A DNA stretch of 64,000 nt from contig JAKQIY010000068.1 of assembly GCA_029561455.1 (NCBI GenBank), forward strand, positions 372,001-436,000, written 5' to 3'. Under the pieces are notes generated by a model. That model was not told the origin of the DNA. It searched no databases and was given only the letters and a program-made list of their open reading frames with translations. This DNA comes from a bacterium (GTDB lineage Bacteria; Zhuqueibacterota; Zhuqueibacteria; Residuimicrobiales; Krinioviventaceae). Positions 9,656-29,972 of the stretch are shown one piece after another; position 1 is the first letter of the stretch, and every line of letters starts with the position of its first letter. Both the position numbers and the translations under genes were made by a program.

Positions 9656-9725
9656 GCATCATGTTCATATTGAACACCGGGATAGCCGGTAATCAAAGAA
9701 ATATATTATTCAAGGAGGAAAATCA

Positions 9726-10166: not shown

Positions 10167-10227
10167 TCAGATACGGTACTTATGAATGTATAAAACGAAT
10201 ATAAACATATATTAAAAAGGATGTACA

Positions 10228-10812
10228 ATGGCTACTTTTATCGATGAATTTATGAAAACAATGGGCCCGCAGGTGGGTAAACAAATGGCAGCGACTCTAG
10301 GAATTAATAAAAATACTGCCATGCAGATATTACCCCAGGTCGCGCCGCTGATTTTAGGAGGCCTGAAAAACCAGATGCAAAATTACGGCGGTGAAGCACG
10401 GGTTGATCACATATTAAATAAATATGGCAGCGCCAGTGTTTTGGACAATATCGGTGGCTTGTTCTCACAAAAAGCCACACAAAGCAATCCCGATCCCCGT
10501 TTGGGCGGATTATTAGGTGAATCCGGAGTGCAAGCGGCCAATTTACTGGCAAAACAGTTTAATTTGAATCAAAACACAGCTATGCAAATTATTCCCATGC
10601 TGGCGCCAGTCATTTTGGGTGCGCTGACAAAAAAACGCGATGTGGGCGGCGCAGGTTCCAGTGGTATAGCTGCACTGCTCGATCAGGACGGCGACGGCAG
10701 CATTTTAGATGATGTCGCCGGTTTTCTGATGAGTGGTTTGGCAGGTTCAGGTGGACAAAAAAGCAGCCCACTGGGCAGCTTACTGGGCGGATTATTCGGC
10801 AAACGAAGGTAA
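10228..10812 (+). CDS. DUF937 (YidB-like) protein
   Basis: A 194-residue protein with two repeats of the DUF937 type: MGPQVGKQMAATLGINKNTAMQI followed by LPQVAPLILGGL, and AKQFNLNQNTAMQIIPMLAPVILGAL. The C terminus is Gly/Ser-rich and contains DQDGDGSILDD, a loop resembling EF-hand or dockerin-like calcium loops, ending GSLLGGLFGKRR. Function unknown; YidB-like proteins are small and often sit with stress genes. Placed between kbp and htpX with short gaps, likely the same transcript. Confidence 0.85.
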   Translation: MATFIDEFMKTMGPQVGKQMAATLGINKNTAMQILPQVAPLILGGLKNQMQNYGGEARVDHILNKYGSASVLDNIGGLFSQKATQSNPDPRLGGLLGESGVQAANLLAKQFNLNQNTAMQIIPMLAPVILGALTKKRDVGGAGSSGIAALLDQDGDGSILDDVAGFLMSGLAGSGGQKSSPLGSLLGGLFGKRR

Positions 10813-10836
10813 TCATTCTATTATGAGGATATTCAG

Positions 10837-11655
10837 ATGACGAGTAATTTTCGAACCTTTTTTTTCATGACGGTTCTGACTGTTCTGTTTGTCTGGATCG
10901 GCAGTGTTTTGGGCGGGCAACAAGGGGCAATAATTGCCTTTATTGCTTCGGCTGTAATGAATTTCTGGGCGTACTGGTTCAGTGATAAAATGGTGCTGAG
11001 CCAATACCGCGCTCAGGAAGCATCGCCGGACAGCAGATTGTACCGGATGGTTGCCGGTCTGGCGCAAAATGCCAAAATGCCAATGCCCAAAGTTTATACG
11101 ATCCCGGATAACAGCCCCAATGCGTTTGCTACCGGACGAAACCCCAACCATGCAGCAGTATGCGCTACCGACGGTTTAATGAACTTGCTGAGCGATGATG
11201 AATTATCCGGCGTTATGGCGCATGAACTTGCTCATGTCAAGAATCGCGATATTTTAACCAGTTCCATAGCCGCCACGCTGGCCGGGGCTATTTCTATGCT
11301 GGGACAATTTGCCAGGGTTTCTTCAGGCAGCGCCCGTTCCCGGCAAAATCCTGTACTTATGTTATTCATTTTAGTTGGAGCGCCGTTAGCAGCCGTTATG
11401 ATCCGCATGCTCATATCCCGCATCCGTGAATATGCGGCCGATAATGGCGGCGCCCAAATTTCCGGCAAACCGCTTTCACTGGCCAGCGCTCTCAACAAAT
11501 TACAATTGGGAGTTCAACGTGTCCCCATTGAAAGAGGCAATCCGGCGCATTCACAAATGTTCATAGTCAATCCCTTTCTGGGCGGGTTACAAAAGTTATT
11601 CTCTACTCACCCACCCATCGAGGAGCGAATAAAAAGATTACAAGCAATGGCATAA
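10837..11655 (+). CDS. htpX: Membrane zinc metalloprotease HtpX (M48 family)
   Basis: A 272-residue M48 peptidase. Two N-terminal transmembrane segments (about 8-25 and 29-48) precede the catalytic motif HELAHVKNRD (zinc ligands His129 and His133, catalytic Glu130), a further hydrophobic pair (about 145-162 and 172-192), and the third ligand Glu199 in REYAADNGG. HtpX degrades misfolded membrane proteins in the inner membrane. Its 25-bp spacing from the DUF937 gene and the terminator just after it mark the end of the operon. Confidence 0.93.
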   Translation: MTSNFRTFFFMTVLTVLFVWIGSVLGGQQGAIIAFIASAVMNFWAYWFSDKMVLSQYRAQEASPDSRLYRMVAGLAQNAKMPMPKVYTIPDNSPNAFATGRNPNHAAVCATDGLMNLLSDDELSGVMAHELAHVKNRDILTSSIAATLAGAISMLGQFARVSSGSARSRQNPVLMLFILVGAPLAAVMIRMLISRIREYAADNGGAQISGKPLSLASALNKLQLGVQRVPIERGNPAHSQMFIVNPFLGGLQKLFSTHPPIEERIKRLQAMA

Positions 11656-11670
11656 CAAGAATTAACAAAA

Positions 11671-11695
11671 AAGCCTGAATACAAAATTCAGGCTT
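11671..11695. terminator. Bidirectional rho-independent terminator after htpX
   Basis: A 10-bp stem, aagcctgaat paired with attcaggctt, encloses a 5-nt loop and is followed by a T run to 11699, with an A run on the other side. It lies 15 bp after the htpX stop and just beyond the end of the convergent HerA-like gene, so it can serve both. Confidence 0.88.
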
Positions 11696-11717
11696 TTTTA
11701 TTTACATTTGTGTTGGC

Positions 11718-14126: not shown

Positions 14127-14244
14127 GCTGGCCTCCTGGATAAATTATGGAATTAAAAAATTTCGTTAAAATCAATATCTAAAAAAAGTGTAGTCTAGAA
14201 AACTATACATTTAAAATAACATTCCCGGATTACAATATCAATAA

Positions 14245-14280
14245 AAAAGCGGTGGACCGATCAGTTGTCACACCGCTTTT
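14245..14280. terminator. Rho-independent terminator after galK
   Basis: Arms aaaagcggtg (14245-14254) and caccgctttt (14271-14280) form a 10-bp stem with a 16-nt loop. An A run on the left becomes the U tract when read leftwards, 25 bp after the galK stop, so galK transcripts should end here. Confidence 0.8.
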
Positions 14281-14305
14281 ATATAGAATTTTATTATAAC
14301 TGTAA

Positions 14306-15457
14306 CTAGTTCAATTCATGAGCGCCCTGGGCTGCTGCAGAAATATATATTTTAGCTTCAGTCCCGGTTGTTTTTTTATAGTGCGAATAGATGAGCTCAC
14401 AGACATGACCGACTTTATCTTTATCCACCAAATTAACCGTGCAGCCGCCAAATCCGCCTCCGGTCATGCGGGCGCCCAGTACGCCTGGAATTTTCCTGGC
14501 GATATTGACCATGATATCCAGTTCGCGGCAACTGACCTGGTAATCATCGCGCAGGCTGTCATGCGAGGCATTCATTAACTCGCCAAAGCGTTTCAAATCA
14601 TTTTTTTGCAATGCGTCAATAGATTCGACAGTTCGCTCATTTTCCGAAATAACATGCCGGCAGCGTTTTTGAACAATTAGCGGCAGTGTTTCCTGCAGTG
14701 GTGAAAATTTATCCATCGACACATCACGCAGCGCCTTGATCGGCCCCAAAGCGCTACTCAATAGTTTTACACCGGCTTCACATTCGGCCCTGCGTTTGTT
14801 ATACTCCGAAGCGGCCAGTTCGTGTTTGACCATGGTATTGCAGATTACGATACGAATTTTATCCGCAGGCAGGGGCACCTGTTGAAAAGTCAGGTTGCGG
14901 CAATCCAGGAACAAAGCTTTATCTTTTTCGCCATGAATTGAGATAAACTGATCCATTATTCCGCAATTCATGCCGACAAATTTGTTTTCAGCCCGTTGAC
15001 CCAGTTTGGCCAGCCGGATGTTATCCATTTTTGCGTTCACAGTGCTGAGTAATGCTAATGCACAAGATATTTCTAGAGCCGCCGATGAACTCAATCCGGC
15101 GCCAACTGGTACTTCGCTTTCAATATGCATATCAGCGCCGGTCAGTTTAAAGCCTTCATCTTCCAGCATTTTGACAATGCCTACCGGATAGTCGCTCCAG
15201 TTATTGCGCTTTTGCATTTTCTCATCCAGAGGAATCGATAAGGCTTCTTTCATATTTTCGGACCAGATAGAGAGCATACGGTCTTTACGCGGTATTATAG
15301 CAACCGCTGTATAATTTTCCAAAGCCATTGGAAAAACAAAACCGTCGTTATAATCCGTATGCTCGCCAATCAAATTAACTCGGCCGGGCGCTCGAAAAAT
15401 ACGTGGTATACCTTTAAAATGCTTATTAAAATTCTTGATGATTAAATTACGATCCAT
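14306..15457 (-). CDS. galK: Galactokinase
   Basis: A 383-residue GHMP kinase that phosphorylates galactose to galactose-1-phosphate in the Leloir pathway. The galactokinase signature RAPGRVNLIGEHTDY is at 22-36, the ATP-binding PVGAGLSSSAALE at 117-129, the catalytic Asp169 in GIMDQF, and the C-terminal GHMP motif is TGGGFGGCTVNL. Length matches bacterial GalK. It directly follows the vSGLT-like symporter gene on the same strand (72-bp gap), so uptake and phosphorylation of galactose are probably co-transcribed. No galT or galE is in the window. Confidence 0.97.
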   Translation of the reverse strand: MDRNLIIKNFNKHFKGIPRIFRAPGRVNLIGEHTDYNDGFVFPMALENYTAVAIIPRKDRMLSIWSENMKEALSIPLDEKMQKRNNWSDYPVGIVKMLEDEGFKLTGADMHIESEVPVGAGLSSSAALEISCALALLSTVNAKMDNIRLAKLGQRAENKFVGMNCGIMDQFISIHGEKDKALFLDCRNLTFQQVPLPADKIRIVICNTMVKHELAASEYNKRRAECEAGVKLLSSALGPIKALRDVSMDKFSPLQETLPLIVQKRCRHVISENERTVESIDALQKNDLKRFGELMNASHDSLRDDYQVSCRELDIMVNIARKIPGVLGARMTGGGFGGCTVNLVDKDKVGHVCELIYSHYKKTTGTEAKIYISAAAQGAHELN

Positions 15458-15529
15458 TATTTCCTCAATACACCAAATAATTAATTGATATTATTCAACA
15501 AAGTAACTATAATTAAAGTAATAAAGATG

Positions 15530-17167
15530 TTACCAGAACAGTGCATATAATACCACCAATATTATCAAAATGGCATAAGCGCTGATATTAAAAACTGAAT
15601 CAGTTTTAAACATTTTCGACGGCAAAGAGATAGCTTTGGCATCATCATCTTCTTTAGAGGTTACCAAGCTTACACCGGCAATGATTGCCATTGTAATAAT
15701 CAGCGTATAAAACATTTGATCCATAAAAGGTAATGCAAGTGCAGGGGTTTTCAACAAAAAGGCGACCAGGATCGAAAGTAACACGCCAACAATTGCACCT
15801 TTATTGGTGGCTTTTTTCCAGAACAAGCCCATTAAAAACACACCCAAAATACCAGGACTTACTAAACCGGTATACTCTTGAATATACTGGAACATTTGTT
15901 TGATATTACCCATGACCGGCGCCAAAAGTACAGCAATAACCAGCGCAACACCGGCGGCAAGTCTGCCCATACCGACTAGTTGTTTTTCAGTAGCATTCTT
16001 TTTAAAATAAGGTTTATAAATATCCAGGGTAAAAATGGTTGATGTTGAATTTAACATTGAAGCCAGAGAAGAAACAATAGCGGCAGTCAGAGCAGCCAAT
16101 ACCAGACCTTTTAAACCAATTGGAATAAACTTGCTAATTAACCAGGGATAAGCTTTATCATAATTTATTGTACCACTAGTTGTCAGGAATGATTCCTTTA
16201 CACCATCAATTATTGCAGTACCGGCAGGCTGTGTAAATAAAACAAATGCAACAATACCGGGTATAACCACAAAAAGTGGGATCAACAATTTTAAAAAAGC
16301 AGCAAAAGCAAGTCCACGTTGGGCTTCTTTTAAAGATTTAGCGGCAAGCGCGCGTTGAATAATATATTGGTTAAAACCCCAATAGTAAAGATTGGCAACC
16401 CACATACCGCCAATTAAAACGGCAATACCCGGAAGATTGGAAAATTGCGGGTTATCTTTTTTAAGAATCATGTGAAATTTATCGCCGGCAGTGTTTGCCA
16501 AATGATTAATACCGTTTGCTAGTCCACCATCAGGAGTTAAATGATTTAAGGCAAATATTGTAGTGATGACACCACCGATAATAAGTAAAGCAACTTGTAA
16601 TACATCTGTCCAGGCAACAGCGGACAAGCCGCCATATAAGGAATAAGCGGCAGCAATAAAGGCTAACCCTAAAATAGCATAAATTATTAAACTGCCATCA
16701 CCATTACCGATAATAGTATCAATCGCTTTTCCTCCCAAAAACAATACAGAGGTCAAATTGACAAATATAAAAAGAGCAACCCAAAAAACAGCCAAAATGG
16801 TTTTTAGATTTGTACTATAACGGGCTTCAATAAATTCCGGAATTGTATATAATTTTTTTTCAATAAAAACCGGAAGAAAAAATTTAGCAACGATAATCAG
16901 AGTAATTGCAGCCATCCACTCATAGCTGGCAATTGCCAAGCCAATGGCAAAGCCTGAACCTGCCATACCAATAAATTGTTCAGCCGATATATTGGCGGCA
17001 ATGAGCGATGAACCGATTGCCCACCAGGGCAGTGATTTGCTGGCCAGGAAATAATCCTGAGCATTCTTTTGATGGCCTTTTTTTTCTCGGGATACCCAGA
17101 GACCTAATCCGATTATAGTAATTAAATAGCAAGTAAATACTAAATAATCATAAATTGAAAAATTCAT
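15530..17167 (-). CDS. sglT: Sodium/galactose (glucose) cotransporter, vSGLT-like
   Basis: A 545-residue SSS-family symporter, close in length to Vibrio vSGLT (543). Residues known from the vSGLT structure to contact galactose appear in matching contexts: Gln64 (SAEQFIGMAG), Glu83 (ASYEW), Asn259 and the gate Tyr262 (ANLYYWGFNQY), Lys293 (FAAFLKLL) and Gln427 (MFQYIQEY). The correspondence is from memory of the published numbering, not an alignment. The sodium-site helix SSLASMLNSTSTIFT is intact. Upstream of galK in one transcription unit, which supports galactose as a substrate. Confidence 0.93.
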   Translation of the reverse strand: MNFSIYDYLVFTCYLITIIGLGLWVSREKKGHQKNAQDYFLASKSLPWWAIGSSLIAANISAEQFIGMAGSGFAIGLAIASYEWMAAITLIIVAKFFLPVFIEKKLYTIPEFIEARYSTNLKTILAVFWVALFIFVNLTSVLFLGGKAIDTIIGNGDGSLIIYAILGLAFIAAAYSLYGGLSAVAWTDVLQVALLIIGGVITTIFALNHLTPDGGLANGINHLANTAGDKFHMILKKDNPQFSNLPGIAVLIGGMWVANLYYWGFNQYIIQRALAAKSLKEAQRGLAFAAFLKLLIPLFVVIPGIVAFVLFTQPAGTAIIDGVKESFLTTSGTINYDKAYPWLISKFIPIGLKGLVLAALTAAIVSSLASMLNSTSTIFTLDIYKPYFKKNATEKQLVGMGRLAAGVALVIAVLLAPVMGNIKQMFQYIQEYTGLVSPGILGVFLMGLFWKKATNKGAIVGVLLSILVAFLLKTPALALPFMDQMFYTLIITMAIIAGVSLVTSKEDDDAKAISLPSKMFKTDSVFNISAYAILIILVVLYALFW

Positions 17168-17655
17168 TCAAGGCTCCTTTATATTTTTTATTGCCCGAAC
17201 ATTGATTTTTTTTAACAAAATAGTGATTTAAATTTTATGAAAATAATTAAAATATCATTACTAGTCAAGAAACATTTAGAAAATGAATAATGTTTGGAAT
17301 TTATAAACTGAATTCACACTTCGGGTTCAAATATCTTGTCCAATAATTTCACAAATTAGTCTTAAGGAAAAAAGAAGTTTTGGTTAGCAATCTTTTAATA
17401 ATTATGGCATAATTATTGATAATTATTAAGAGGAAGAATGTGAAAAGTGGTATTTATTTTTTAGTAAGTAATATGGCAAAAACCCACTCTAATAAAGCAG
17501 AAAAATAATTGTTGAATATAATGTCTGACTAATAATTGAATATAAATATCGCCAGATTTGTTCAAAAGTAATGGTATTCATCATAGAATAAAATATTATG
17601 GTTTAATTAAAAATTTATTGGTAAGTTTAAATATGTACCCAAGGTTTGTAAAAAG
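17168..17655. other. Divergent intergenic region between sglT and the YfiR-like gene
   Basis: A 488-bp AT-rich stretch without a gene. The main visible structure is an inverted repeat aataattat/ataattatt (17397-17405 and 17409-17417, spacer ggc), followed at once by another ataattatta. It could be an operator or a simple AT palindrome. Promoters for both directions should lie here but none is convincing. Confidence 0.4.
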
Positions 17656-18198
17656 ATGAGACGGCAAATAATATTATTATTGCTTTTTTGTAGTGTTCTT
17701 ATCGGCAATGCGATCAGTCAAATTAGCGAATATTCGGTCAAAGCAGTGTACCTGGAAAGGTTCACCCGTTTTATGCAATGGCCGTCAAATATTGCTTTGG
17801 AAGATACAACGCAAGAATTTATTCTGGGGGTTATAGGTGATAATCCTTTTGAAAATAAATTGGAAGAAATCTATACCGAACAAAAAATTAAAAATAAAAA
17901 AGTAAAACTTGTCTATTATCAAAATGTCTCGCAGATTGAAGAATGTCATTTACTATTTATTGCCCGCACTGATAATGATAAACTCTTTAAAATTCTCTCA
18001 TATTGCAGCAACAAACCAATATTAACAGTAAGCGATACAGGAGGATTTGGCGGTTATGGTGTTCACATTAACTTTTATATTAGCGATAACAAGGTAAAAT
18101 TTGAAATCAATGAAAAAGCATTACATAAAGCCGGACTCAAATGCAGCTATCTTTTATTGAAATCAGCGCGAATAATTAATCCGGTTGGAGGTTTTTGA
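17656..18198 (+). CDS. YfiR-like periplasmic protein (DUF4154)
   Basis: A 180-residue secreted protein: signal peptide (IILLLLFCSVLIGNAIS), then the DUF4154 pattern SEYSVKAVYLERFTRFMQWP, GVIGDNPF, CHLLFIAR, PILTVSDTGGFGGYG and a final KSARIINPVG. YfiR-type proteins are periplasmic partners that repress or modulate an inner-membrane signalling protein (in Pseudomonas, the cyclase YfiN). Here the next gene begins on the last base of this one and encodes a CHASE8/HAMP sensor kinase, the type of domain YfiR binds, so the pair probably forms one periplasmic sensing unit. Note a kinase, not a cyclase, as output. Confidence 0.87.
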   Translation: MRRQIILLLLFCSVLIGNAISQISEYSVKAVYLERFTRFMQWPSNIALEDTTQEFILGVIGDNPFENKLEEIYTEQKIKNKKVKLVYYQNVSQIEECHLLFIARTDNDKLFKILSYCSNKPILTVSDTGGFGGYGVHINFYISDNKVKFEINEKALHKAGLKCSYLLLKSARIINPVGGF

Positions 18199-20495
18199 TG
18201 ATAAAGATCAAAAATCTCTCCATAAAAAGTAAATTGCTCGGACTGGTTTTATCGGTTTCTTTTACCATGCTCGTTCTTGGTTTTTCGTTTGTAATTATTA
18301 ACTATGTTTTAACTCTGAAAAAGAACATGGTAATCAACATTATGATCAATGCCAAATTGATTGGCGAATACAGTGTCGCCCCCATGATGTTCGATCAACG
18401 CGAAGGCGCCCAGGAAATTTTGGAAAAGTTACAAACAATACCTTCAATCGTTAATGGTTATATTTTTTATAAAAATGGTGAATTGTTTGCATCCTATCAA
18501 ACCAATAAACATATAACAATAGATCAAAATCTTATCAGGGAACCGGGGTATCTATTTAAAAACAAATATTTACACGCAACAAGACAGATCATCTATCATA
18601 ATACAAACTATGGAACAATTTACCTGGTGGCTACTACAGGTGAATTGAATAATACTATTCTTCGTTATCTGTTCATGATGCTGATTGTTTTAATTGTTCT
18701 CTTTATCATTACCTACTATTTGGCTTTAAAACTGCAAAATATAATATCGCAGCCATTACAAACACTGGTCGAAACTACTCAGACTATATCTAGGGAAAGT
18801 GATTATTCTATACGTGTATCCAAGTATGGCAATGATGAAATCGGACAGCTCTATGATGAATTTAACGAAATGCTAAAACAAATTCAGGAAAGAGAAATCG
18901 CCCGGAATATGGCCGAAAAAGCAGTGCGCGACAGTGAATTCCGCTATCGTACTTTATTTCAGCTCTCTCCCATTCCTATATTTGTTCATAGTAAAGATCA
19001 TTTTGTTTTTATAAACAATGCGGCTATCGCAACGTTAGGTGGACAAACCTCCGGTGAATTTATTGGTAAATCAATTTATGATATTATTTTACCGGATATT
19101 TTCACTGCAGATGAGCTAACCCCTAGAACTGGTGAAAAGTCTGGGCTAACTGAAAAAAAATACTTACGGCTTGACAATCAAATAATTTATGTTGAATCTG
19201 TAGAAAGTCAAATTGAATACAAGGGCGCCCCTGCCGCCCAGGTTGTTTTCCAGGATATTACAGATAGGAAAAAGGCCGAACAGGAAATTCTTAAACTGAA
19301 TGAGGAACTTGAAAAAAGAGTTCAAATCCGTACCGACCAGCTGAAAAAGATCAACATTAATCTGAAAAAGGAAATACGTAACCGCAAGTATGTTGAAAAA
19401 AACTTGCGTGAAAGTGAAGAACGGTTCAGGGCAATTTTTGAATCCACCTCCGATGGCATAGTAGTTTGGGATCGAAACTATATTTGTCTGTATGCAAACC
19501 AGGCATTTTATAAATATATCGGTATGGAAAAGAAAAAGATCACCGGTAAAAGCCTTGATACCGGCTTGGGACATTTTATTGATTACAGTTCCAATTGGCG
19601 GCAAAGAATTAACCAGGTTTTAAATAGCGGCCAACCGGTATGGGCGGAAGATAATACGATAATAAATAATAAGCAAGTTTTTGGCGAATCAATTCTCTCA
19701 CCGATACGGAATGAAGACGGTGAAATCTTTGCCGTGGGTATAATTTATCGTGATATCACGGAACGGAAATTATACGAAGAAAAAATCAAAAATTACGCCG
19801 CTAAACTTGAGGATGCCAATAAAGAACTGGAAGCATTTTCCTATTCCGTTTCCCATGATTTACGTGCGCCGCTCCGTTCAATTGACGCTTTTTCCAAAAT
19901 CGTGCTGGAGGAAGAATTGCCCCGCCTTTCGGATAACGGCAAGAAATACCTGCAAATAGTGCGCGATAATGCGAAGCAGATGGACCTGCTCATCAAAGAT
20001 TTACTCGATTTTTCACGTTTGGGAAGAAAACCGCTGGTCAAACAAAGTGTGAATATCAGGGAACTGGTAGAGTTTACGGTAAAAGAGTTGAGTACAAATT
20101 ACGCATCTCAAAATCCGGCGGTTATTCAAGAACCGTCATTAGATGTGCAAGTTAAAGCGGACGCCTCTTTGCTTAAACAGGTTTTTGTAAATATAATTGA
20201 TAATGCTTTCAAATACTCCAGTAAAAATCCCAATCCAATTATCACAATCGGCACATTTAAACAAAACAATGAACTCGTCTGTTTTGTAAAAGACAATGGT
20301 GTGGGTTTTGACATGCGATATGCCGATAAATTATTCGGTGTATTTCAAAGACTGCATAGAAGCGATGAATTTTCCGGAACTGGCGTAGGCTTGGCTATTG
20401 TTAACAGAATCATTACCCGCCATGGCGGTAAAATATGGGCCGAATCGGAAGTGAACTTTGGTACTACTTTTTATTTTACTGTGAGTGATAACTAG
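18198..20495 (+). CDS. Membrane sensor histidine kinase (CHASE8-HAMP-PAS-PAS-HisKA-HATPase)
   Basis: 765 residues from ATG 18198. TM1 (about 12-34), a small periplasmic CHASE8-like domain (to about 155), TM2, HAMP, PAS, a coiled coil, a second PAS, HisKA with His553 in SVSHDLRAPLRSIDAFSK, and HATPase_c with N box NIIDNAFKYSS, DNGVGFDM and GTGVGLAIVNRI. No receiver domain. ATG is set 6 nt after GGAGG; a TTG at 18195 is less well spaced. The start shares one base with the YfiR-like stop, so translation is coupled. The cognate response regulator may be the next gene, which has two receiver domains. Confidence 0.93.
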   Translation: MIKIKNLSIKSKLLGLVLSVSFTMLVLGFSFVIINYVLTLKKNMVINIMINAKLIGEYSVAPMMFDQREGAQEILEKLQTIPSIVNGYIFYKNGELFASYQTNKHITIDQNLIREPGYLFKNKYLHATRQIIYHNTNYGTIYLVATTGELNNTILRYLFMMLIVLIVLFIITYYLALKLQNIISQPLQTLVETTQTISRESDYSIRVSKYGNDEIGQLYDEFNEMLKQIQEREIARNMAEKAVRDSEFRYRTLFQLSPIPIFVHSKDHFVFINNAAIATLGGQTSGEFIGKSIYDIILPDIFTADELTPRTGEKSGLTEKKYLRLDNQIIYVESVESQIEYKGAPAAQVVFQDITDRKKAEQEILKLNEELEKRVQIRTDQLKKININLKKEIRNRKYVEKNLRESEERFRAIFESTSDGIVVWDRNYICLYANQAFYKYIGMEKKKITGKSLDTGLGHFIDYSSNWRQRINQVLNSGQPVWAEDNTIINNKQVFGESILSPIRNEDGEIFAVGIIYRDITERKLYEEKIKNYAAKLEDANKELEAFSYSVSHDLRAPLRSIDAFSKIVLEEELPRLSDNGKKYLQIVRDNAKQMDLLIKDLLDFSRLGRKPLVKQSVNIRELVEFTVKELSTNYASQNPAVIQEPSLDVQVKADASLLKQVFVNIIDNAFKYSSKNPNPIITIGTFKQNNELVCFVKDNGVGFDMRYADKLFGVFQRLHRSDEFSGTGVGLAIVNRIITRHGGKIWAESEVNFGTTFYFTVSDN

Positions 20496-20563: not shown

Positions 20564-23242
20564 ATGACAAAACAATTTAATTCTCAGGAACCCGCTTTGT
20601 CCGATTCTACTCAAAATATTAAAATTCTGTTGCTTGAAGATAATCCTTATGATATCGAGTTAACCAAGCGGGAACTCTACAAGGCCAATATTCATTTCTC
20701 CCTGGAACAAGTTAATAACAAAGAAGCCTTTGTAAACGCTTTGACCGCTACGAAACCCGATATTATACTGGCCGATTATAATCTCCCCCAATTTAATGGC
20801 TTGACCGCTCTTGAAATCACCAAAGCTCTTGATCCATCAATTCCATTTATTATTGTTACAGGAGCAATTGCTGAAGAAACAGCCGCAGAAACGATCAAAA
20901 TGGGGGCATGGGATTTTGTTGTCAAGGAAAGATTATTCCGGCTGGGGCCGGTAGTTATTAATGCAATTAAACAAAAACAGGAAAACGAGAAAAAACAACA
21001 GATTGAAAAAGCGCTGGTTGAAAATGAAATACTATTGTCTGCTTTTATGAATTCTGTAACTGACGGCTTTTCCCTTTATGATTCAGAATTAAGAATTTTA
21101 AAATATAATCAAACCTCAAAATGGTTTTTCAGTCCGGGCATTTCGATGATCGATGGGAAAAGTATACTGGAAATATCGCCATCGGTAAAAACATCAGGAC
21201 GTTATGAAAATTATCTTAAAGTCATCAAAACCGGCATCCCTTATAATACGGAAGCGATTATCGACCATCAGCAAATGGGGCAGCTCTTTTTGCAAATAAA
21301 GGCATTCAAAGTCGGAAATTATCTGGGTATTATTTCAACAGATATAACCGAACAAAAAAAAGCGGAAAACGCCCTGCGGATCAGCGAAGAGCAATACAGA
21401 ACCCTGGTGGAAGGTTCAGGCCAGCCGATTTGTATGATTGATGAAAACGGACAAATATTGTTTGTAAACCAGATAGCCGCCTCTTATATCAATAAAAAAC
21501 AGGATGAACTGGCCGGCAACAACATTAGTAATATTCTGCCCGAACAAATTGCAAATTTTTATTTAAGCATCATTAAAAAAGCTATTCAGCAGAATCAACT
21601 TATTGTTAATGAAAATAAAGTACCGATTGGTAATGATTATTACTGGCTGGAAACCCGGATTTTTCCAATTAAAAAAGATCATAACAGCATTCATTCGGCA
21701 TTGGTTTTTATTTTGGATATTAATGAAAGGAAGAAATCGGAAGAAGAAAGAAACCTGCTCTATACAGCGTTTAACCATACCTATGAAATAGTGATCATTA
21801 CAGATCAGCATTTTATTATTCAATATGTTAATCCGGCTTTTGAGAGACTAACTGGTTTTTCCCGTGAATCGGTTATCGGCCAAAACACCGATATTTTACA
21901 ATATCCGATACAAGACAAGAGTATCCATGATGAAATAACAGCTACAATAAAACAGGGTAATATCTGGCGTGGCCATCTCACTGCAGGAAAAATTGATAAC
22001 AGCGCCTTTGAGGCGGAAACAACCATAGCCTCGGTTTTGAATGATGCAGGCATCATAACCAATTATGTTATCGTCATCCGCGATGTTACAGAAGAAAAAA
22101 AGCTGGAACTGCAATTACGTAAATCACAAAAACTGGAAACGATCGGCACGCTTGCCGGTGGAATTGCCCATGATTTTAATAATATCCTGGTACCGATCAT
22201 AGGTTATTCAGAATTACTGACGGAAAAAATTGATCCTGAAACCCCGGAATATACTTTTTTAGATCATATCCTCAAAGCCGGAGCTCGCGCCAAAGACCTG
22301 ATCAACCAAATTTTGACCTTTAGTCGTCGTGTTGAACAGGAACGCCGACCAATTTATGTGCAAACGATTTTAAAAGAGGTTATAAAATTACTACGCGCAT
22401 CCATTCCGACGAGTATTGAAATTCGTCAAAAAATTAATACCAATTGCGATACCGTGCTGGCCGATCCCACTCAACTGCACCAGGTGGTTATGAATTTGTG
22501 TGTCAATGCCTTTTATGCAATGCGCAAAGAAGGTGGAACGTTGACCATTGAATTGGATATGTATGAATTAAAGGATGATACAGGTAAATTAAACCTGCCC
22601 AAAGGAGCTTATGTAAAACTTTTCGTCAGCGACACCGGCGAAGGAATGGATCAGACTATACTGGAAAGGATATTTGAACCTTTTTTTACTACCAAACGGA
22701 ATAATGAAGGCACCGGCCTCGGCCTTTCGGTTGTTCATGGTATTGTTTTAAGCCATGAAGGTGAAATTGTGGTTGAGAGTCAACCAAATGTTGGCACATC
22801 CTTTACAATCTATCTACCGGCTTACGCTAGTCCACAGCAGGAAAAAGTGGAAAATACCGAGTTACCCAAAGGACATGAACGAATTTTATTCGTTGACGAT
22901 GAAGAAGAAATTGTCGAACTGAATTTACAAATTCTTGAACAGTTGGGGTATCAGACTACCGTTACCTCCAGCAGTCTTGAAGCGTTGGAAATATTTCAAG
23001 CCCAGCCCGATCAATATGACCTGTTGTTTACCGATTATACCATGCCGAAAATGAATGGCCTGAAACTTGCCCAGGAAGTGAGCAAAATAAAACCGGGGAT
23101 ACCTATTATACTGTGCACCGGGTATAGCGAGAATGTTACCCATGAACAAGCACAAGCTCTAGGTATTAAAGAATTTGTCTTTAAACCATTAACAATGAGT
23201 TCCATTGCCCAGATCATTCGCCGGGCTCTGGATGACCGATAA
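20564..23242 (+). CDS. Hybrid histidine kinase (REC-PAS3-HisKA-HATPase-REC)
   Basis: 892 residues, no membrane segment. N-terminal receiver (ILLLEDNPYDIEL, phosphoacceptor Asp71 in ILADYNLPQ), three PAS domains between about 150 and 515 (the first begins NEILLSAFMNSVTDGFSLY), HisKA with His536 in GTLAGGIAHDFNNILVPI, HATPase_c (DTGEGMDQTI, EGTGLGLSVVHGI), and a C-terminal receiver (ILFVDDEEEIVELN, Asp in LLFTDYTMPKMNG). It sits 68 bp after the membrane kinase on the same strand, so its N-terminal receiver is a plausible phosphorylation target of that kinase. No DNA-binding output in either protein. Confidence 0.93.
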   Translation: MTKQFNSQEPALSDSTQNIKILLLEDNPYDIELTKRELYKANIHFSLEQVNNKEAFVNALTATKPDIILADYNLPQFNGLTALEITKALDPSIPFIIVTGAIAEETAAETIKMGAWDFVVKERLFRLGPVVINAIKQKQENEKKQQIEKALVENEILLSAFMNSVTDGFSLYDSELRILKYNQTSKWFFSPGISMIDGKSILEISPSVKTSGRYENYLKVIKTGIPYNTEAIIDHQQMGQLFLQIKAFKVGNYLGIISTDITEQKKAENALRISEEQYRTLVEGSGQPICMIDENGQILFVNQIAASYINKKQDELAGNNISNILPEQIANFYLSIIKKAIQQNQLIVNENKVPIGNDYYWLETRIFPIKKDHNSIHSALVFILDINERKKSEEERNLLYTAFNHTYEIVIITDQHFIIQYVNPAFERLTGFSRESVIGQNTDILQYPIQDKSIHDEITATIKQGNIWRGHLTAGKIDNSAFEAETTIASVLNDAGIITNYVIVIRDVTEEKKLELQLRKSQKLETIGTLAGGIAHDFNNILVPIIGYSELLTEKIDPETPEYTFLDHILKAGARAKDLINQILTFSRRVEQERRPIYVQTILKEVIKLLRASIPTSIEIRQKINTNCDTVLADPTQLHQVVMNLCVNAFYAMRKEGGTLTIELDMYELKDDTGKLNLPKGAYVKLFVSDTGEGMDQTILERIFEPFFTTKRNNEGTGLGLSVVHGIVLSHEGEIVVESQPNVGTSFTIYLPAYASPQQEKVENTELPKGHERILFVDDEEEIVELNLQILEQLGYQTTVTSSSLEALEIFQAQPDQYDLLFTDYTMPKMNGLKLAQEVSKIKPGIPIILCTGYSENVTHEQAQALGIKEFVFKPLTMSSIAQIIRRALDDR

Positions 23243-23244
23243 AT

Positions 23245-23937
23245 TTATAACCGCGATGATAAATGTAAACGCGCTTTCTCCACGTACTCGCTATATGGAT
23301 ATTCATTGATCAACTTGTTAAAATATAACCTGGCGTTCATTTTATCCTGCATTTTATAATAACATCTGCCGATCATCATAACCGCATCATCATTTTTATC
23401 AGAAGTTCCCATTGTCAAAACTTTTTGAAATGTTTCCAGGGCAGCAGCATAATTTTCCTGGCCAAAATAACACTCGCCGATCCAGTAATGACAATTAATT
23501 TTAAAAGTGTTGGAGGGGTACTCGGAGATTAGCGTATTAAATTCTCGCATAGCCTCGGTATATTTTTCCCTATGATATAAAGACATGGCGTTTTCGTAAC
23601 GTTGTACATAATCACTGGTATTTATACCAGGTTGCTGGGGTAAAGGTGCAATTGTAGTCGTTTGTACTTCCGGCACTTTTGCCGGGGGTTTTATTTGCTC
23701 AACAGAATCGTTGGCAACTGTAGAGGCTGAAGAATCCGGTTTGGGAGTGTATACCGTAGTATCCATTTGGGTATTCTGGACTATCCCAGGTATTGACGAT
23801 ACATTTTTAGTGGATTTCTTTTGCCAAAAGAATACAATGACCAATGCAATAACTAATAAAAACATTAAAAATGGTACAACTGGAATCCCTTTCTTTTTAG
23901 GGATTTTGGGGGGATTGGGTTTAATAGTTCCTGTCAT
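23245..23937 (-). CDS. Membrane-anchored TPR protein, CpoB/YbgF-like
   Basis: A 230-residue protein with a cytoplasmic basic start, one transmembrane segment (PVVPFLMFLLVIALVIVFFW, about 21-40), a Thr/Pro-rich linker, and three C-terminal tetratricopeptide repeats (YENAMSLYHREKYTEAMREF, CHYWIGECYFGQENYAAALETF, MIGRCYYKMQDKMNARLYF). The repeat set matches the C-terminal module of YbgF/CpoB, which coordinates envelope constriction. The membrane anchor in place of a cleaved signal peptide differs from CpoB. Its stop is only 2 bp from the stop of the convergent hybrid kinase. AAAGGA precedes the ATG. Confidence 0.8.
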   Translation of the reverse strand: MTGTIKPNPPKIPKKKGIPVVPFLMFLLVIALVIVFFWQKKSTKNVSSIPGIVQNTQMDTTVYTPKPDSSASTVANDSVEQIKPPAKVPEVQTTTIAPLPQQPGINTSDYVQRYENAMSLYHREKYTEAMREFNTLISEYPSNTFKINCHYWIGECYFGQENYAAALETFQKVLTMGTSDKNDDAVMMIGRCYYKMQDKMNARLYFNKLINEYPYSEYVEKARLHLSSRL

Positions 23938-24408: not shown

Positions 24409-25971
24409 ATGGCAATTAAAACACCCTTCACCCGTTTATCTCTACTGAAACCAAAAAAAATTCCCTTGTTCAAATCCTCCGGTCAGATTCTTTTTTTAAC
24501 CGGCGTTCTGATCGGAGTAGTGATAATTATCCTTTTTAACCTGATGATAAAACACACATCCACAAATGAATTTTGTGAAATTTGCCATGTCCATCCACAT
24601 GCGACTATCAGTTGGAAGCAGGGGCCGCATTACGATAATGCCCGTGGCATTGCGGTTACCTGTGTAGAATGTCACCTTCCTCCTGGCGGCAGCCTGCACT
24701 ATTATACCGAAAAAGCCAGGCTTGGTGCAAAGGATGCTTATGGCAAGTTATTCAAGGATATTTCAAAAATTAACTGGGATGCAAAATCAACAGTTGAACA
24801 TGCTGCTAGTTTTACTTATAATGAATCATGTGTGCGCTGTCATTCCAATCTTTTTCCCATCGGCCTTACTACCAAAGGTCAGGATGCGCATCTTTATTAT
24901 ACACAGCAAAAAGATGACGAACTATTATGCATCAACTGTCATTTGCATACCGGTCATTACTCCGACGAAGCACAGCAGGAATTTGATTTTCGCAAATCTA
25001 CCGGTAAAGCAACCGAAAAATATATCAAACCAGCACTAGTCACAGAATTTAAGGATTTTACGGAATTTATTCCCGGCAGCAACGTAAAGTTCGATATGAT
25101 AGCAATTCCCGGTGGAACGTTCAAGATGGGCAGTCCCGATAAAGAGCCGCTGCGCAGCGCCGATGAAGGCCCGCAAGCGCTGGTAGAGATTAGCCCATTC
25201 TGGATGGGTAAAATTGAAGTAAGCTGGGATGAATACGAAACCTTTTATGCTCAAACCTCACGCGAGGGACGTTCCGACACCCAGGTCAATATAGTGCGCG
25301 CCGGCAGTGGCATAGATGCGATTACCGGACCAACCCCTCCCTATGGCAATCCGGCGCAGGGTTATGGCAAGGAAGAACGTCCGGCCATTACTATGACCTG
25401 GTATGCGGCCAATATCTATTGTGAATGGCTGTCACAGGTTACCGGTAAAAAGTACCGCCTGCCTACCGAAGCCGAATGGGAATATGCCTGCCGCGGCGGC
25501 ACGGAAACAGCTTATTTCTTTGCCGGTAATCCCAAAAAATATACTGCAGAAAGTTTTTGGAATAAAATTTTCGGTCCGGATACTTCCGTCATCAACACAT
25601 ATATCATTTACAAGCAAAACAGCATTGGCAAGTCCCATTTACCTTCGCGGGTTAAAGGCAATTCGTTCGGATTGCTGCACATGACCGGCAATGTCAAGGA
25701 ATTCTGTTCGGACTGGTATTCGCCAAAGATATATGCCGACTATCAACAAAACGGACAGATTAAAAATCCAACCGGTCCGGTCTCCGGCGAGGAACGTGTG
25801 ATACGCGGCGGTTCCTATAAATCCGATGCCGCCCAGGTTCGTTCCGCCGCCCGCGATCATACCCTGTATAACAAATGGATGAAAACCGATCCGCAAATGC
25901 CAAAATCGTTATGGTGGTATTCGGACTGCAACGATGTCGGGTTCCGGGTAGTATGCGAGATAAGCAATTGA
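24409..25971 (+). CDS. Tetrahaem NapC/NrfH-like cytochrome c fused to a SUMF1 (FGE-sulfatase) domain
   Basis: 520 residues from ATG 24409. A cytoplasmic basic stretch and one TM (about 27-47) lead to four CXXCH haem sites at Cys56, Cys85, Cys141 and Cys174, the size and spacing of the NapC/NirT/NrfH quinol dehydrogenases that pass electrons from menaquinol to periplasmic partners. From about residue 226 follows a SUMF1/FGE-sulfatase domain (MIAIPGGTFKMGSP, YRLPTEAEWEYACRGG, HMTGNVKEFCSDWY, VIRGGSY, VGFRVVC). The two cysteines that catalyse formylglycine formation are absent, so this is probably a binding or structural domain. The next gene is a Tat-exported Gfo/Idh/MocA protein 42 bp on. I recall no characterised protein with this fusion. 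Confidence 0.92.
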   Translation: MAIKTPFTRLSLLKPKKIPLFKSSGQILFLTGVLIGVVIIILFNLMIKHTSTNEFCEICHVHPHATISWKQGPHYDNARGIAVTCVECHLPPGGSLHYYTEKARLGAKDAYGKLFKDISKINWDAKSTVEHAASFTYNESCVRCHSNLFPIGLTTKGQDAHLYYTQQKDDELLCINCHLHTGHYSDEAQQEFDFRKSTGKATEKYIKPALVTEFKDFTEFIPGSNVKFDMIAIPGGTFKMGSPDKEPLRSADEGPQALVEISPFWMGKIEVSWDEYETFYAQTSREGRSDTQVNIVRAGSGIDAITGPTPPYGNPAQGYGKEERPAITMTWYAANIYCEWLSQVTGKKYRLPTEAEWEYACRGGTETAYFFAGNPKKYTAESFWNKIFGPDTSVINTYIIYKQNSIGKSHLPSRVKGNSFGLLHMTGNVKEFCSDWYSPKIYADYQQNGQIKNPTGPVSGEERVIRGGSYKSDAAQVRSAARDHTLYNKWMKTDPQMPKSLWWYSDCNDVGFRVVCEISN

Positions 25972-26013
25972 TTGTAATATATTACACCAATTAAAAGTAG
26001 ACAGGAGAAAAAA

Positions 26014-27309
26014 ATGAAGGAACAAAAAACTGATTACTCACGCCGGAATTTTATCAGCACAGTAGCTGCCGCCGGCGCGGTTATGGTGGCTTGTAGTGGT
26101 AACAAAGTCAATACTGCACAAGTCCCGGCCTTTCTCGATCAGGCTCCGGATGGCAAAGAATTACGCGCCGGATTGATCGGCTGCGGCGGTCGTGGTTCAG
26201 GCGCTGCGCTGGATTTCCTGAATGCCGGTCCAAATCTTAAAATTGTAGCCCTGGCAGATGTATTCAAAGACAGACTCGATGACTGCAAGGGCAAACTGGC
26301 TAAAGAAAAAAATAATAGTGTTCCCGAAGAAAATTGCTTTCTCGGTTTTGACGCCTATCAAAAACTGGTTGAATGCAAGGATGTCGATGTTGTATTGATC
26401 GCCACTCCCCCGCATTTCCGGCCGATGCAGTTTGAAGCCGCAATTAATGCCAAAAAACATGTCTTTATGGAAAAACCGGTAGCAGTCGATCCGGTTGGCG
26501 CGCGCTCGATCATGGCCACTGCCAAAAAAGCCGAAGCATTGGGCTTGTGTGTGGTAACCGGCACTCAACGCCACCACCAGAGAGAGTATGTATCAACATA
26601 CAAACTGATCAAAGAAGGCGCGATTGGTGAAATCGTTTCTGCAAATTGTTATTGGAACCAGAACCAGCTCTGGTACAGAACCCGTCAAAGCGGCTGGACG
26701 GATATGGAATGGATGATCCGCGACTGGGTGAACTGGACCTGGCTCTCCGGCGATCATATTGTCGAGCAGCATGTCCACAACCTGGACGTCATCCACTGGT
26801 TCACCGGGCAAAAACCGGTCAAGGCAGTCGGTTTTGGCGCGCGGCAGCGGCGTGTCACCGGCGATCAATACGATATGTTCAGCGTTGATTTTACCTATGA
26901 AAGCGGTATGCATGTACACAGTATGTGCCGGCAAATCAATGGTTGCGTGAATAATGTTTCCGAATTTATCCGCGGTACCAAAGGCTCTTCCAACTGCGCC
27001 AACACGATATGGGATGCCCAGGGCAAGGAACTGTGGAAATATGCCGGTGAAGGCGACAAATCGCCGTATGTACAGGAACACATTGATTTTGTAACCGCTA
27101 TCCGCAACAATACCCCCATTAACGAAGCTGAAGCCACAGCCATTTCCACAATGGGCGCTGTTATGGGTCGCATTTCCGCTTATACCGGTAAAGAAGTGAC
27201 CTGGGAAGAAGTGATGAATTCAGATATGAAGCTGGAACCCAAAGAATACAAGATGGCAAATATTGGCGCCAAAGTTGTGATCCCGGTTCCGGGCAGTGAA
27301 AAAGACTGA
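26014..27309 (+). CDS. Tat-exported Gfo/Idh/MocA-family oxidoreductase (probable lipoprotein)
   Basis: 431 residues. The N terminus has a twin-arginine motif (YSRRNFIS, Arg10-Arg11), a hydrophobic stretch and a lipobox-like MVAC (Cys27), indicating export of the folded, cofactor-loaded protein. Rossmann motif GLIGCGGRGSG (54-63), catalytic EKP (Glu153-Lys154-Pro155), and EQHVHNLDVIHWFTG (His255, Asp258) mark an NAD(P)-dependent Gfo/Idh/MocA enzyme acting on sugars, cyclitols or related. Exported members include GH109-type glycosidases and 3-keto-glycoside pathway dehydrogenases. Placement behind a quinol-linked cytochrome suggests periplasmic redox on a sugar-like substrate (inference). AGGAG precedes the ATG. 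Confidence 0.93.
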   Translation: MKEQKTDYSRRNFISTVAAAGAVMVACSGNKVNTAQVPAFLDQAPDGKELRAGLIGCGGRGSGAALDFLNAGPNLKIVALADVFKDRLDDCKGKLAKEKNNSVPEENCFLGFDAYQKLVECKDVDVVLIATPPHFRPMQFEAAINAKKHVFMEKPVAVDPVGARSIMATAKKAEALGLCVVTGTQRHHQREYVSTYKLIKEGAIGEIVSANCYWNQNQLWYRTRQSGWTDMEWMIRDWVNWTWLSGDHIVEQHVHNLDVIHWFTGQKPVKAVGFGARQRRVTGDQYDMFSVDFTYESGMHVHSMCRQINGCVNNVSEFIRGTKGSSNCANTIWDAQGKELWKYAGEGDKSPYVQEHIDFVTAIRNNTPINEAEATAISTMGAVMGRISAYTGKEVTWEEVMNSDMKLEPKEYKMANIGAKVVIPVPGSEKD

Positions 27310-27316
27310 GGACGAT

Positions 27317-27345
27317 AAAAGCCCTGTGCAACACACAGGGCTTTT
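27317..27345 (+). terminator. Rho-independent terminator of the redox operon
   Basis: A perfect 12-bp stem, aaaagccctgtg (27317-27328) and cacagggctttt (27334-27345), with a 5-nt loop and a U tract, begins 8 bp after the oxidoreductase stop. Confidence 0.9.
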
Positions 27346-27414: not shown

Positions 27415-27488
<74 letters not shown>

Positions 27489-27494
27489 CTACTC

Positions 27495-27536: not shown

Positions 27537-29972
27537 CTACTTGTAAATTATTTTTACACCTGGAATTGTATCTATAAATTTACTTTTTTGAGGAAATAAC
27601 TTTTCAATAATTGCATTGATATTTACGCCTATACCAAAAACATTTGGCTGCAATGTTAAAACCTTATTTGCCTTTTCTATAAATGATTCGCGGCTTTCCG
27701 ATTGTGATTCAAGTTTTCTCAATATTTTTAAAATTTCATTTAAATCGGATTTTTCTTCCTGAATATAACCCAATAACTCTTTGACGCTATATTCTTTATC
27801 CGAACCATCGGGGATATATAACTGATTGCCGGCTTTATCAAGACGCAGTAAATGTTTATAACTGACCGTAATTGCGGGTTGATCTGGCATGGGTACTTTT
27901 TCAACTGCATCAATTTTTTCAAAGCTGCTGTTAATATCACGCAAGTTAAATAAAATGATTGAAAAATACTCTCTTCTCTGGCTGCCCGCTACATAAATGT
28001 ATATTTTTTTATCACGCTCATCAACTTTAATCACCGCTTCCGATTCAAATTCTTTATCTGCAAGCACCACCCCTGTGCGCCACTGTAGTTTGCTATCTTT
28101 AATGTCCCTGTTCATCTTGATAATAAAGCGCGGTATAATGGATTTGGGCAGGAAATCATACTCGATGATAAAACGCAGACAGTTATCATAAGCAAAAGCA
28201 AACTCCGGTTCCGGGACCGGCAGCAAGTTGGGCAGCAAAATCACATCATGATCGATTTCGTAACAAAGCTCAAATTTTTTCATCAGTTCAATAATGTATT
28301 TGTGTTTATCGGCGGGAAACTCGTAATCGTCATGATTCTTTTTTTGTAATATCTTGTCCAGAAGACGTAAATGCAGGCGGCCGCCCTTTTCCGCCAGTTC
28401 CTGGGAATTGATGATCCGGTACACCGCGCCGGTCACCCATTTCGGTTCCAGGACATGCACATCGCGCAGGGCAAAATCCTTAAAATGCACCACCACGCCG
28501 AGGTCATGCAGAAATTCTACCAGCGTCTCCCGGCCGGAATCATTTGGAATTTTTTGAGATTCACATATTTCGCAAAACCGCTGCACATTTATGAACGGCT
28601 CAGTCATTTTTTGTAATACTTCTTTTACGCGGAACCAGCTTAACGACCAGGTGATATTCAGGTGTTCCACATAAGTAAATGCTTTTTCAAGGGCTTTGAT
28701 AAATTCTGCAATTCCTTCCCCGTTTTGACAGGAGACCCGGAAATAACCTTGTATAGACGGATATTTTTCGCTGAGGAATTTACGGTTGATCTCAAAGCCC
28801 GGATTTTCATCTATTTTGTTGATCACCACAAGTATGGGAGAATCGCCGCCGAAACTCTGAATATGCTTGAGCCAGTATTCTTCATCCTGTTCCTTGCGGC
28901 AATCCAAAACAAGGATATAAATACTACGTTTAGATAAAAAGAATTGATGAGTATGGTGCATGATCTGCTGGCCGCCAAAATCCCAAAAATGAGCGTTAAT
29001 AGTTTTATCATTCACCGTATAGGCGTTATCACGAATTAGGATTCCATGGGTTTGTTTTTCATTAGCGTCATATTTTTCTCCAAACATTTGTTTGACAAGC
29101 GAAGTCTTGCCTGAACCACCATCACCGATCAGGAGTACTTTAACCTCGTTCAATGATTTATACTCGCTTTTTAGGGATCGATAATAATCACGGATAGCTT
29201 TATTACCTTTTTGAATAATCTCGATTGGTGGTAGTTCAATGGGATTGCCATATACGCAAACAATATTATAGCCTAACCATTCCCATTTTATTTCCATATC
29301 CAAATCAAGTAAAAATTCTGGCAAAATTTTTATTTGATTACTACTTAAATCAAGTTGTCCAAGGTTTTTTAGCTTACCGATTACTTCAGGTAAATAATTA
29401 AATAAATTTTCACTTAAATCGAGCATATTGAGGTTTGTGAGTTTACCAATAAAATCGGGTAGAATTGTTAATCTATTTTCTCCTAAATATAACATTTTAA
29501 GTTTCGTTAGTTTGGAAATAGTTTCGGGTAGAGTAGTAAATTTATTATCAAATAAATCAAGCTCAATAAGATTTAAAAGTTTTGCAAAAGAATCAGGTAG
29601 GGTAGATAAATGATTCTTTCTTAAATCAAGCCAAGTCAAATTTATAAGTTCTCCTATAGACTCTGGTAGTGTAGTCAATTGATTATTCTTTAAATGAAGT
29701 ATTGAAAGATTTTTGAGTTTTGTTATTACCTCTGGAATTTTGGTAAATTTATTATTATTTAGACCTAATATTTCAAGATTAGTTAATATTGCTAAAGTCT
29801 CAGGCAAGTAAGCTAAATTACATCCCTCCAAATAAAGACCATCAATTCTTTTATTTTCATTTAATAAATAGCCTATGTGGTCATTCAAACCAAAAGTTTT
29901 TGGATTTAATTGCACTAAATTCAAACCAATTTCCAGTTCCAGTTTCCGAATTATCGCTAAATCATCTGTCAT
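27537..29972 (-). CDS. Roco protein (LRR-Roc GTPase-COR)
   Basis: 811 residues. Eight leucine-rich repeats of 23 residues (about 44-225; consensus LxxLDLxxNxLxxLPExIxKLxN) lead to a Ras-of-complex GTPase: P-loop GDGGSGKTS (283-291), switch II DFGGQQ (331-336) and base-specific NKID (385-388). The COR dimerisation domain follows (WFRVKEVLQKM, then LHDLGVVVHFKD and VLEPKWVTGAVYRI), with a helical C-terminal tail. Bacterial Roco proteins such as that of Chlorobium tepidum are dimeric GTPases of unclear role. No kinase domain. It lies convergent to the initiator tRNA, alone, with a long gene-free upstream region, which would fit lateral acquisition beside a tRNA. Confidence 0.93.
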   Translation of the reverse strand: MTDDLAIIRKLELEIGLNLVQLNPKTFGLNDHIGYLLNENKRIDGLYLEGCNLAYLPETLAILTNLEILGLNNNKFTKIPEVITKLKNLSILHLKNNQLTTLPESIGELINLTWLDLRKNHLSTLPDSFAKLLNLIELDLFDNKFTTLPETISKLTKLKMLYLGENRLTILPDFIGKLTNLNMLDLSENLFNYLPEVIGKLKNLGQLDLSSNQIKILPEFLLDLDMEIKWEWLGYNIVCVYGNPIELPPIEIIQKGNKAIRDYYRSLKSEYKSLNEVKVLLIGDGGSGKTSLVKQMFGEKYDANEKQTHGILIRDNAYTVNDKTINAHFWDFGGQQIMHHTHQFFLSKRSIYILVLDCRKEQDEEYWLKHIQSFGGDSPILVVINKIDENPGFEINRKFLSEKYPSIQGYFRVSCQNGEGIAEFIKALEKAFTYVEHLNITWSLSWFRVKEVLQKMTEPFINVQRFCEICESQKIPNDSGRETLVEFLHDLGVVVHFKDFALRDVHVLEPKWVTGAVYRIINSQELAEKGGRLHLRLLDKILQKKNHDDYEFPADKHKYIIELMKKFELCYEIDHDVILLPNLLPVPEPEFAFAYDNCLRFIIEYDFLPKSIIPRFIIKMNRDIKDSKLQWRTGVVLADKEFESEAVIKVDERDKKIYIYVAGSQRREYFSIILFNLRDINSSFEKIDAVEKVPMPDQPAITVSYKHLLRLDKAGNQLYIPDGSDKEYSVKELLGYIQEEKSDLNEILKILRKLESQSESRESFIEKANKVLTLQPNVFGIGVNINAIIEKLFPQKSKFIDTIPGVKIIYK

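Follow-up and report, generated by a model that had tools for sequence, protein, structure and literature searches.

A conserved pair of a NapC-SUMF1 fusion cytochrome and an exported Gfo/Idh/MocA oxidoreductase, proposed to connect periplasmic sugars with menaquinone

The window analysed in the current study is a stretch of 64,000 nucleotides from a bacterium of the phylum Zhuqueibacterota (family Krinioviventaceae; GenBank assembly GCA_029561455.1, contig JAKQIY010000068.1, forward-strand positions 372,001 to 436,000), and the subject is a pair of adjacent genes on its plus strand. The first (24409..25971; Pfam, AlphaFold2) encodes a protein of 520 aa in which a transmembrane anchor, a tetrahaem NapC/NirT cytochrome and a SUMF1-like domain are fused. 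The second, GFO1 (26014..27309; Pfam, AlphaFold2, fold matches), starts 42 bp further on and encodes an exported Gfo/Idh/MocA oxidoreductase of 431 aa. This arrangement is no chance feature: both genes are conserved and lie next to each other in dozens of genomes, and it is nearly certain that the fusion and GFO1 are functionally paired. With moderate confidence, the pair is proposed to be a membrane-held periplasmic sugar dehydrogenase that sends electrons to menaquinone.

The fusion was found in 21 of the 63 genomes of the window's class (50–69% identity) and in 23 of the 82 genomes of its phylum. A scan of 84,980 species genomes, in which records close to the window were possibly left out, yielded at least 18 further fusions; among the matches listed, all belonged to Bacteroidales or their relatives, with hosts in the Prolixibacteraceae, the Tannerellaceae (including Parabacteroides) and the Dysgonomonadaceae, and these counts, coming from the collection scan, are not an unbiased prevalence. 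GFO1 was located within six genes of the fusion at 38 of 41 NapC-fused loci (window included), mostly at a distance of 0–170 bp. The three exceptions were L111, with GFO1 elsewhere in the genome, L149, which is cut by a contig end, and L087, with a shortened GFO1-like gene about 10 kb away. Within the class, a GFO1 orthologue was present in 20 of the 21 genomes with the fusion, as against 4 of the 42 without it (Fisher p=1.5e-11, uncorrected for relatedness), and in these four an unfused SUMF1 gene adjoins a GFO1 that is 50% identical. The initial annotation had made the case for a system depend on the fusion recurring in other genomes, with the oxidoreductase beside its homologues and across phyla; this is what was observed, in the window's phylum as well as in Bacteroidales.

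Pairing with GFO1 was also seen for SUMF1 proteins of the same subfamily that are exported and unfused. They adjoin GFO1 at 32 of 48 scored loci in at least four phyla, the hosts being Flavobacteriaceae, Sphingobacteriaceae, Chitinophagaceae, Saprospiraceae, Rhodothermota, Balneolota, Planctomycetota, Verrucomicrobiota and Acidobacteriota. The SUMF1 and GFO1 trees were broadly congruent (mirror-tree r=0.79, with 0 of 2000 permutations as high), and within groups r was 0.52 (NapC group alone) and 0.58; part of the strength of these values, as of the co-occurrence statistics, comes from shared ancestry. The NapC-fused clade was monophyletic in both trees (support 100/99), and its side correlations therefore represent one evolutionary event, not many. 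At six loci, mostly in Verrucomicrobia, the SUMF1 protein itself contained one or two CxxCH motifs, and the one that was checked had a PSCyt1 domain; therefore two unrelated kinds of cytochrome, NapC and PSCyt1, are joined to the same SUMF1 subfamily. An apparent fusion of SUMF1 and GFO1 into a single polypeptide (L061) was rejected as an artefact of an overlapping frame.

Other genes were also found around the unfused forms. YceI-like genes (isoprenoid-binding family) directly adjoin unfused SUMF1 at L050, L052, L054, L064 and L095, YceI lies upstream of it at L062, and in Maribacter and Zobellia YceI-like genes beside unfused SUMF1 are followed by planctomycete-type cytochrome genes. A second locus in the window's own genome (L129, G000:C18:12000-31500, 8048-19500; L148, 1-6582) has a run of six Gfo/Idh/MocA genes surrounding a SUMF1-like gene that is not fused, together with ThuA-like and DUF1080-like genes and with ApbE about 6 kb further on.

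The architecture of the pair agreed with the initial annotation, which had described a NapC/NrfH-type module fused to SUMF1, a Gfo/Idh/MocA gene 42 bp downstream whose product is exported by the twin-arginine translocation (Tat) system, and a closing terminator. Both Pfam domains and four CxxCH motifs were found in the fusion, GFO1 had its Pfam match and the Tat motif SRRNFI, and a terminator-like hairpin with a 12-bp stem lies 3' of GFO1 (27317..27345, plus strand; −21.7 kcal/mol, z=−6.1 against shuffled sequence). A pattern scan for terminators did not report this hairpin, which was found by folding against shuffles, probably because its T-run lies largely inside the stem.

Residues 26-184 of the fusion (24484..24960) matched Cytochrom_NNT (NapC/NirT, PF03264) with E=1.4e-28 and 100.2 bits against a cut-off of 24.1. 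A membrane helix is predicted at residues 24-50 (24478..24558) from the AlphaFold2/DSSP helix and the hydrophobic sequence, and the CxxCH haem motifs are at residues 56, 85, 141 and 174 (24574-24588, 24661-24675, 24829-24843 and 24928-24942). The mean predicted local distance difference test score (pLDDT) of the model was 85.1. The haem motifs, together with H62, H74, H161 and H183, were invariant in the alignment of 38 fused homologues. Lys102 and Asp109 (24712..24735) align with Lys82 and Asp89 of Desulfovibrio NrfH (2j7a, chain C) and were kept in 38 of 38 fused proteins; the NrfH residues are conserved and have been named in connection with quinone-pool interaction (PMC4683180). Profile match, anchor, four CxxCH and the quinone-site Lys/Asp place the module in the PF03264 family, and it stayed under the NCBIfam equivalog cut-offs for NrfH (66 of 134 bits), the NapC/NirT subfamily model (56 of 311) and TorC (72 of 478). 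One fusion match from the genome search, L015 (G026:C1:18842-20350), contains one in-frame TGA.

The C-terminal part of the fusion (residues 229-482 by Pfam extent, 25093..25854) matched FGE-sulfatase (SUMF1, PF03781) with E=3.5e-42 and 145 bits. In the alignment to the human formylglycine-generating enzyme (FGE), the copper-binding, catalytic cysteine pair is replaced (RGGSYKSDAA), the aligned positions being S472 and a gap, and the residues common at 470-474 across 60 aligned SUMF1 sequences do not include cysteine; a function as FGE was rejected on account of the missing cysteines. Two near-invariant signatures define the subfamily. One is the loop D-x-x-[ST]-x-[PA]-[ST], in the window D303-A-I-T-G-P-T309 (25315..25335), to which nothing in FGE corresponds in the alignment and which is situated at the edge of a low-confidence loop (pLDDT below 50 at residues 287-306), and the other is DPQxPKSxWW at residues 494-503 (25888..25917). 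The fold of this part matched FGE and PvdO (template-modelling score 0.76, normalised by PvdO), and PvdO was among its best sequence matches (E=2e-26); the NCBIfam equivalog cut-offs of PvdO and GldK were not reached (92.7 of 500 and 98.1 of 350 bits). Position 433 of the fusion (25705-25707) is Cys in 38 of the 60 aligned domains and Thr or Val in 22, a split equal to the numbers of fused and unfused rows in that alignment.

GFO1 matched the Pfam family GFO_IDH_MocA (E=2.4e-16), and its model (pLDDT 89.8) resembled YjhC, inositol dehydrogenases, RgNanOx and GFOR in fold. Rossmann and C-terminal domains, the EKP lysine and the active-site histidine identify it as a family member. The catalytic Lys154 of the EKP motif (26473..26475), His255 (26776-26778), Asp258 (26785-26787), G56, G58 and Asp82 were invariant in 54 of 54 GFO1 sequences, and the GxGxxG-type nucleotide motif was kept. 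Judged by sequence, these residues are as expected for a working dehydrogenase of the nicotinamide adenine dinucleotide (NAD) type, and Asp82 suggests NAD over NADP. The score against the BT_2158 glycoside 3-dehydrogenase model NF058561 was 55 bits, under the cut-off of 750.

The N-terminus of GFO1 (26014..26094) has the twin arginine, h-region and lipobox-type cysteine (Cys27) of a Tat lipoprotein, and processing as such is predicted; the cysteine is a feature absent from the initial annotation. Among the GFO1 partners of NapC-SUMF1 proteins, a lipobox cysteine after the Tat h-region was present in 29 of 31 by a strict pattern and in 31 of 31 by eye, compared with 1 of 33 partners of soluble SUMF1, that one being a pattern match inside the enzyme body. 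A membrane-held SUMF1 partner thus appears to go with a membrane-held GFO1, as would be needed for the two to form a physical complex there. This matched anchoring arose once in evolution.

At least one neighbour of keto-sugar type was found within six genes at 26 of 40 NapC loci, the types scored being a Tat-type xylose-isomerase-like TIM barrel, a DUF1080 3-keto-disaccharide hydrolase, ThuA and a second type of Gfo/Idh/MocA protein. The models nearest to the TIM barrel were 5-keto-L-gluconate and D-psicose 3-epimerases, and one second-type Gfo/Idh/MocA neighbour scored 174 bits against the BT_2158 model (cut-off 750). These neighbours therefore indicate keto-sugar chemistry, and oxidation of glycosides at C3 is the best guess for the reaction. 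Periplasmic 3-keto-glycoside pathways have been described for LacABC with DUF1080 (PMC9007349) and for BT2158 (PMC11300592). Sulfatases were rare in the neighbourhoods and only occasionally nearby. In the window, the gene upstream of the fusion (23245-23937) is on the opposite strand, and the fusion and GFO1 therefore stand alone in this genome, which contains one NapC-SUMF1 fusion and 20 Gfo/Idh/MocA matches.

In the proposed mechanism, GFO1 would fold and presumably bind NAD+ in the cytoplasm, and would then be exported by Tat and anchored by lipid. Outside, it would convert a sugar or glycoside into a keto-sugar by oxidising a secondary alcohol, most probably that at C3, and the neighbouring exported epimerases and 3-keto-glycoside hydrolases would process the product. 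The SUMF1 domain would dock GFO1 beside the tetrahaem NapC domain, and electrons would move along all four haems and reach menaquinone at the site marked by Lys102 and Asp109; in this way, respiration would be fed by sugars oxidised outside the cytoplasm. The initial annotation had suggested electron transfer between a periplasmic sugar and the quinone pool, and the retained NrfH quinone-site residues and the 3-keto-sugar neighbours speak for this; the passage of electrons and its direction we infer, along with complex formation, the substrate and the hydride-to-haem step.

Several points weigh against such electron transfer. The chemistry of Gfo/Idh/MocA enzymes is hydride transfer with NAD(P), and to our knowledge no step from NAD-bound hydride to haem has been described for any of them. 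GFOR, YjhC and RgNanOx run redox-neutral cycles with a bound cofactor and need no outside acceptor, and the usual activity of NapC/NrfH proteins, quinol oxidation, runs opposite to the flow proposed here. Neither protein of the pair has an evident flavin or iron-sulphur relay, the analysis turned up no physiological or biochemical data on the pair, and the NapC fusion arose once, so that the correlations are not independent events.

It is worth asking whether GFO1 itself is redox-neutral, bound NAD being reduced and re-oxidised in each cycle as in NAD-dependent glycosidases, YjhC/RgNanOx or GFOR. SUMF1 would then be a domain for docking or for presenting the substrate, and the haem domain would work with another partner or act chiefly as an anchor for the complex. 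The closest folds of GFO1 (YjhC, RgNanOx and GFOR) fit this, as do the unfused SUMF1-GFO1 pairs without any haem domain, which indicate that haem is not essential to the pair. However, 38 of 38 fused proteins keep the haem motifs, distal histidines and quinone-site residues unchanged, which an anchor would have no need of, and a second, unrelated cytochrome is fused to the same SUMF1 subfamily in Verrucomicrobia; this explanation is considered unlikely. A flow in the usual NapC/NrfH direction, with menaquinol oxidised and GFO1 reducing a periplasmic keto-sugar as an electron sink in anaerobes, appears improbable: known NapC/NrfH proteins are quinol dehydrogenases and the named fusion hosts include the anaerobes Parabacteroides and Tannerella, but transfer from menaquinol (about −80 mV) to bound NAD+ (about −320 mV) is uphill by textbook values, and unfused versions are found in many aerobic lineages.

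Two further explanations assign the chemistry to the SUMF1 domain. That it is a redox catalyst like PvdO, which oxidises dihydropyoverdine, and passes electrons to the haems while GFO1 performs a separate pathway step, would account for PvdO being among the best sequence and fold matches and for the unusual invariance of the two signatures. The score lies far under the PvdO cut-off, the copper cysteines of FGE are missing and no cofactor site was recognised, and the idea is therefore regarded as rather improbable. A working formylglycine-generating or other maturase domain, acting on GFO1 or on a sulfatase, is scarcely credible, since the Pfam match and the occasional sulfatase nearby are set against the replaced cysteine pair and the general rarity of sulfatases around these loci.

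Redox wiring of the subfamily recurs in other forms, namely the PSCyt1 fusion and the occurrence of ApbE and YceI beside unfused SUMF1. Of the 48 non-NapC loci, 18 had a gene for ApbE, a flavin mononucleotide (FMN) transferase, no more than six genes away, in varied gene orders and several phyla; the corresponding figure for NapC loci was 1 of 40 (p=5e-5, without correction for relatedness). The chance expectation is about 0.5%, based on about two ApbE genes per genome as counted in the window's class, and 12 of the ApbE candidates were confirmed by Pfam. The presence of ApbE per genome was uninformative as a test, as 62 of 63 genomes carry it.

These observations raise the idea, considered unlikely, of the SUMF1-like domain as a novel type of flavin carrier, with FMN attached by ApbE at the terminal Thr/Ser of the loop. 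SUMF1-bound FMN would take the hydride from GFO1-held NADH and split it into single electrons for the NapC haems, the PSCyt1 haems or a quinone, and this would solve the hydride-to-haem problem. We know of no test of Pro at the Ala position of the ApbE motif. The target motif of ApbE is D-x-x-[ST]-G-A-[ST] (PMC12052999). In the collection scan, 10 homologues (L034, L038, L039, L043, L060, L065, L067, L071, L081 and L087) had it in exact form at the loop position, and a looser pattern counts 11 of 71 SUMF1 proteins with the motif, one of them at another position. Also in favour of the idea, no other gene within six genes at the ApbE loci has the canonical motif, and it was found in no GFO1. Against a flavin at this site, the window protein has DAITGPT, with Pro for Ala, as do most relatives, and the exact motif is missing at loci with adjacent ApbE.

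Compared with known systems, the fusion resembles NrfH and NapC, the quinol dehydrogenases of NrfAH and Nap, in its transmembrane anchor, four CxxCH, quinone-site Lys/Asp pair and periplasmic catalytic partner. Unlike them, it has a C-terminal SUMF1 domain, its partner is a Gfo/Idh/MocA sugar enzyme instead of a multihaem or molybdenum reductase, and the flow proposed is towards the quinone. With PvdO, GldK/PorK and other SUMF1-like proteins without the FGE cysteines it shares the fold and the lack of FGE chemistry; it differs in having its own loop and DPQxPKSxWW and in reaching no curated equivalog cut-off. LacABC combines a flavin enzyme of the GMC type with a cytochrome subunit, unlike the Gfo/Idh/MocA protein and SUMF1-fused NapC of the pair. 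As the lactose/glucoside 3-dehydrogenase of Caulobacter and Pedobacter, it is similar in the membrane-bound periplasmic oxidation of glycosides to 3-keto-glycosides, which for the pair is proposed, and in the DUF1080 hydrolases nearby (PMC9007349). The BT2158-type glycoside 3-dehydrogenase of Bacteroides is likewise an exported Gfo/Idh/MocA enzyme in a 3-keto-glycoside setting; it acts on disaccharides, and the part of the source available describes no cytochrome partner for it (PMC11300592). Searches of open-licence literature did not find the combination of NapC-SUMF1 and GFO1 described.

Beyond the hairpin, the window contains a tRNA-Met gene (27415-27489) and, directly past it on the minus strand (27537-29972), a gene for a bacterial LRR-Roc-COR (ROCO) GTPase of 811 aa that is related to the LRRK2 GTPase module. 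Large sensory histidine kinases are encoded at 18195-20495, 20564-23242 and 59614-62628. The first two, just upstream of the pair, contain PAS domains as read by eye, and the third has PAS domains and an N-terminal receiver by Pfam.

Bacteroidota and Planctomycetota have very large numbers of exported Gfo/Idh/MocA enzymes, and as far as we know it is unsettled how an NAD-dependent enzyme disposes of its electrons in the periplasm. The conserved unit offers a testable answer, namely a haem (or flavin) partner of its own that leads on to the quinone pool, and a flavin on SUMF1, if true, would mean that an NAD-dependent enzyme is connected directly, outside the cytoplasm, with the respiratory chain. 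The presence of the pair in gut genera such as Parabacteroides makes it genetically testable, and the unit would bear on how 3-keto-glycosides are broken down in the gut and in sediments. The pair may thus be an undescribed route by which electrons from extracytoplasmic sugars pass straight into respiration.

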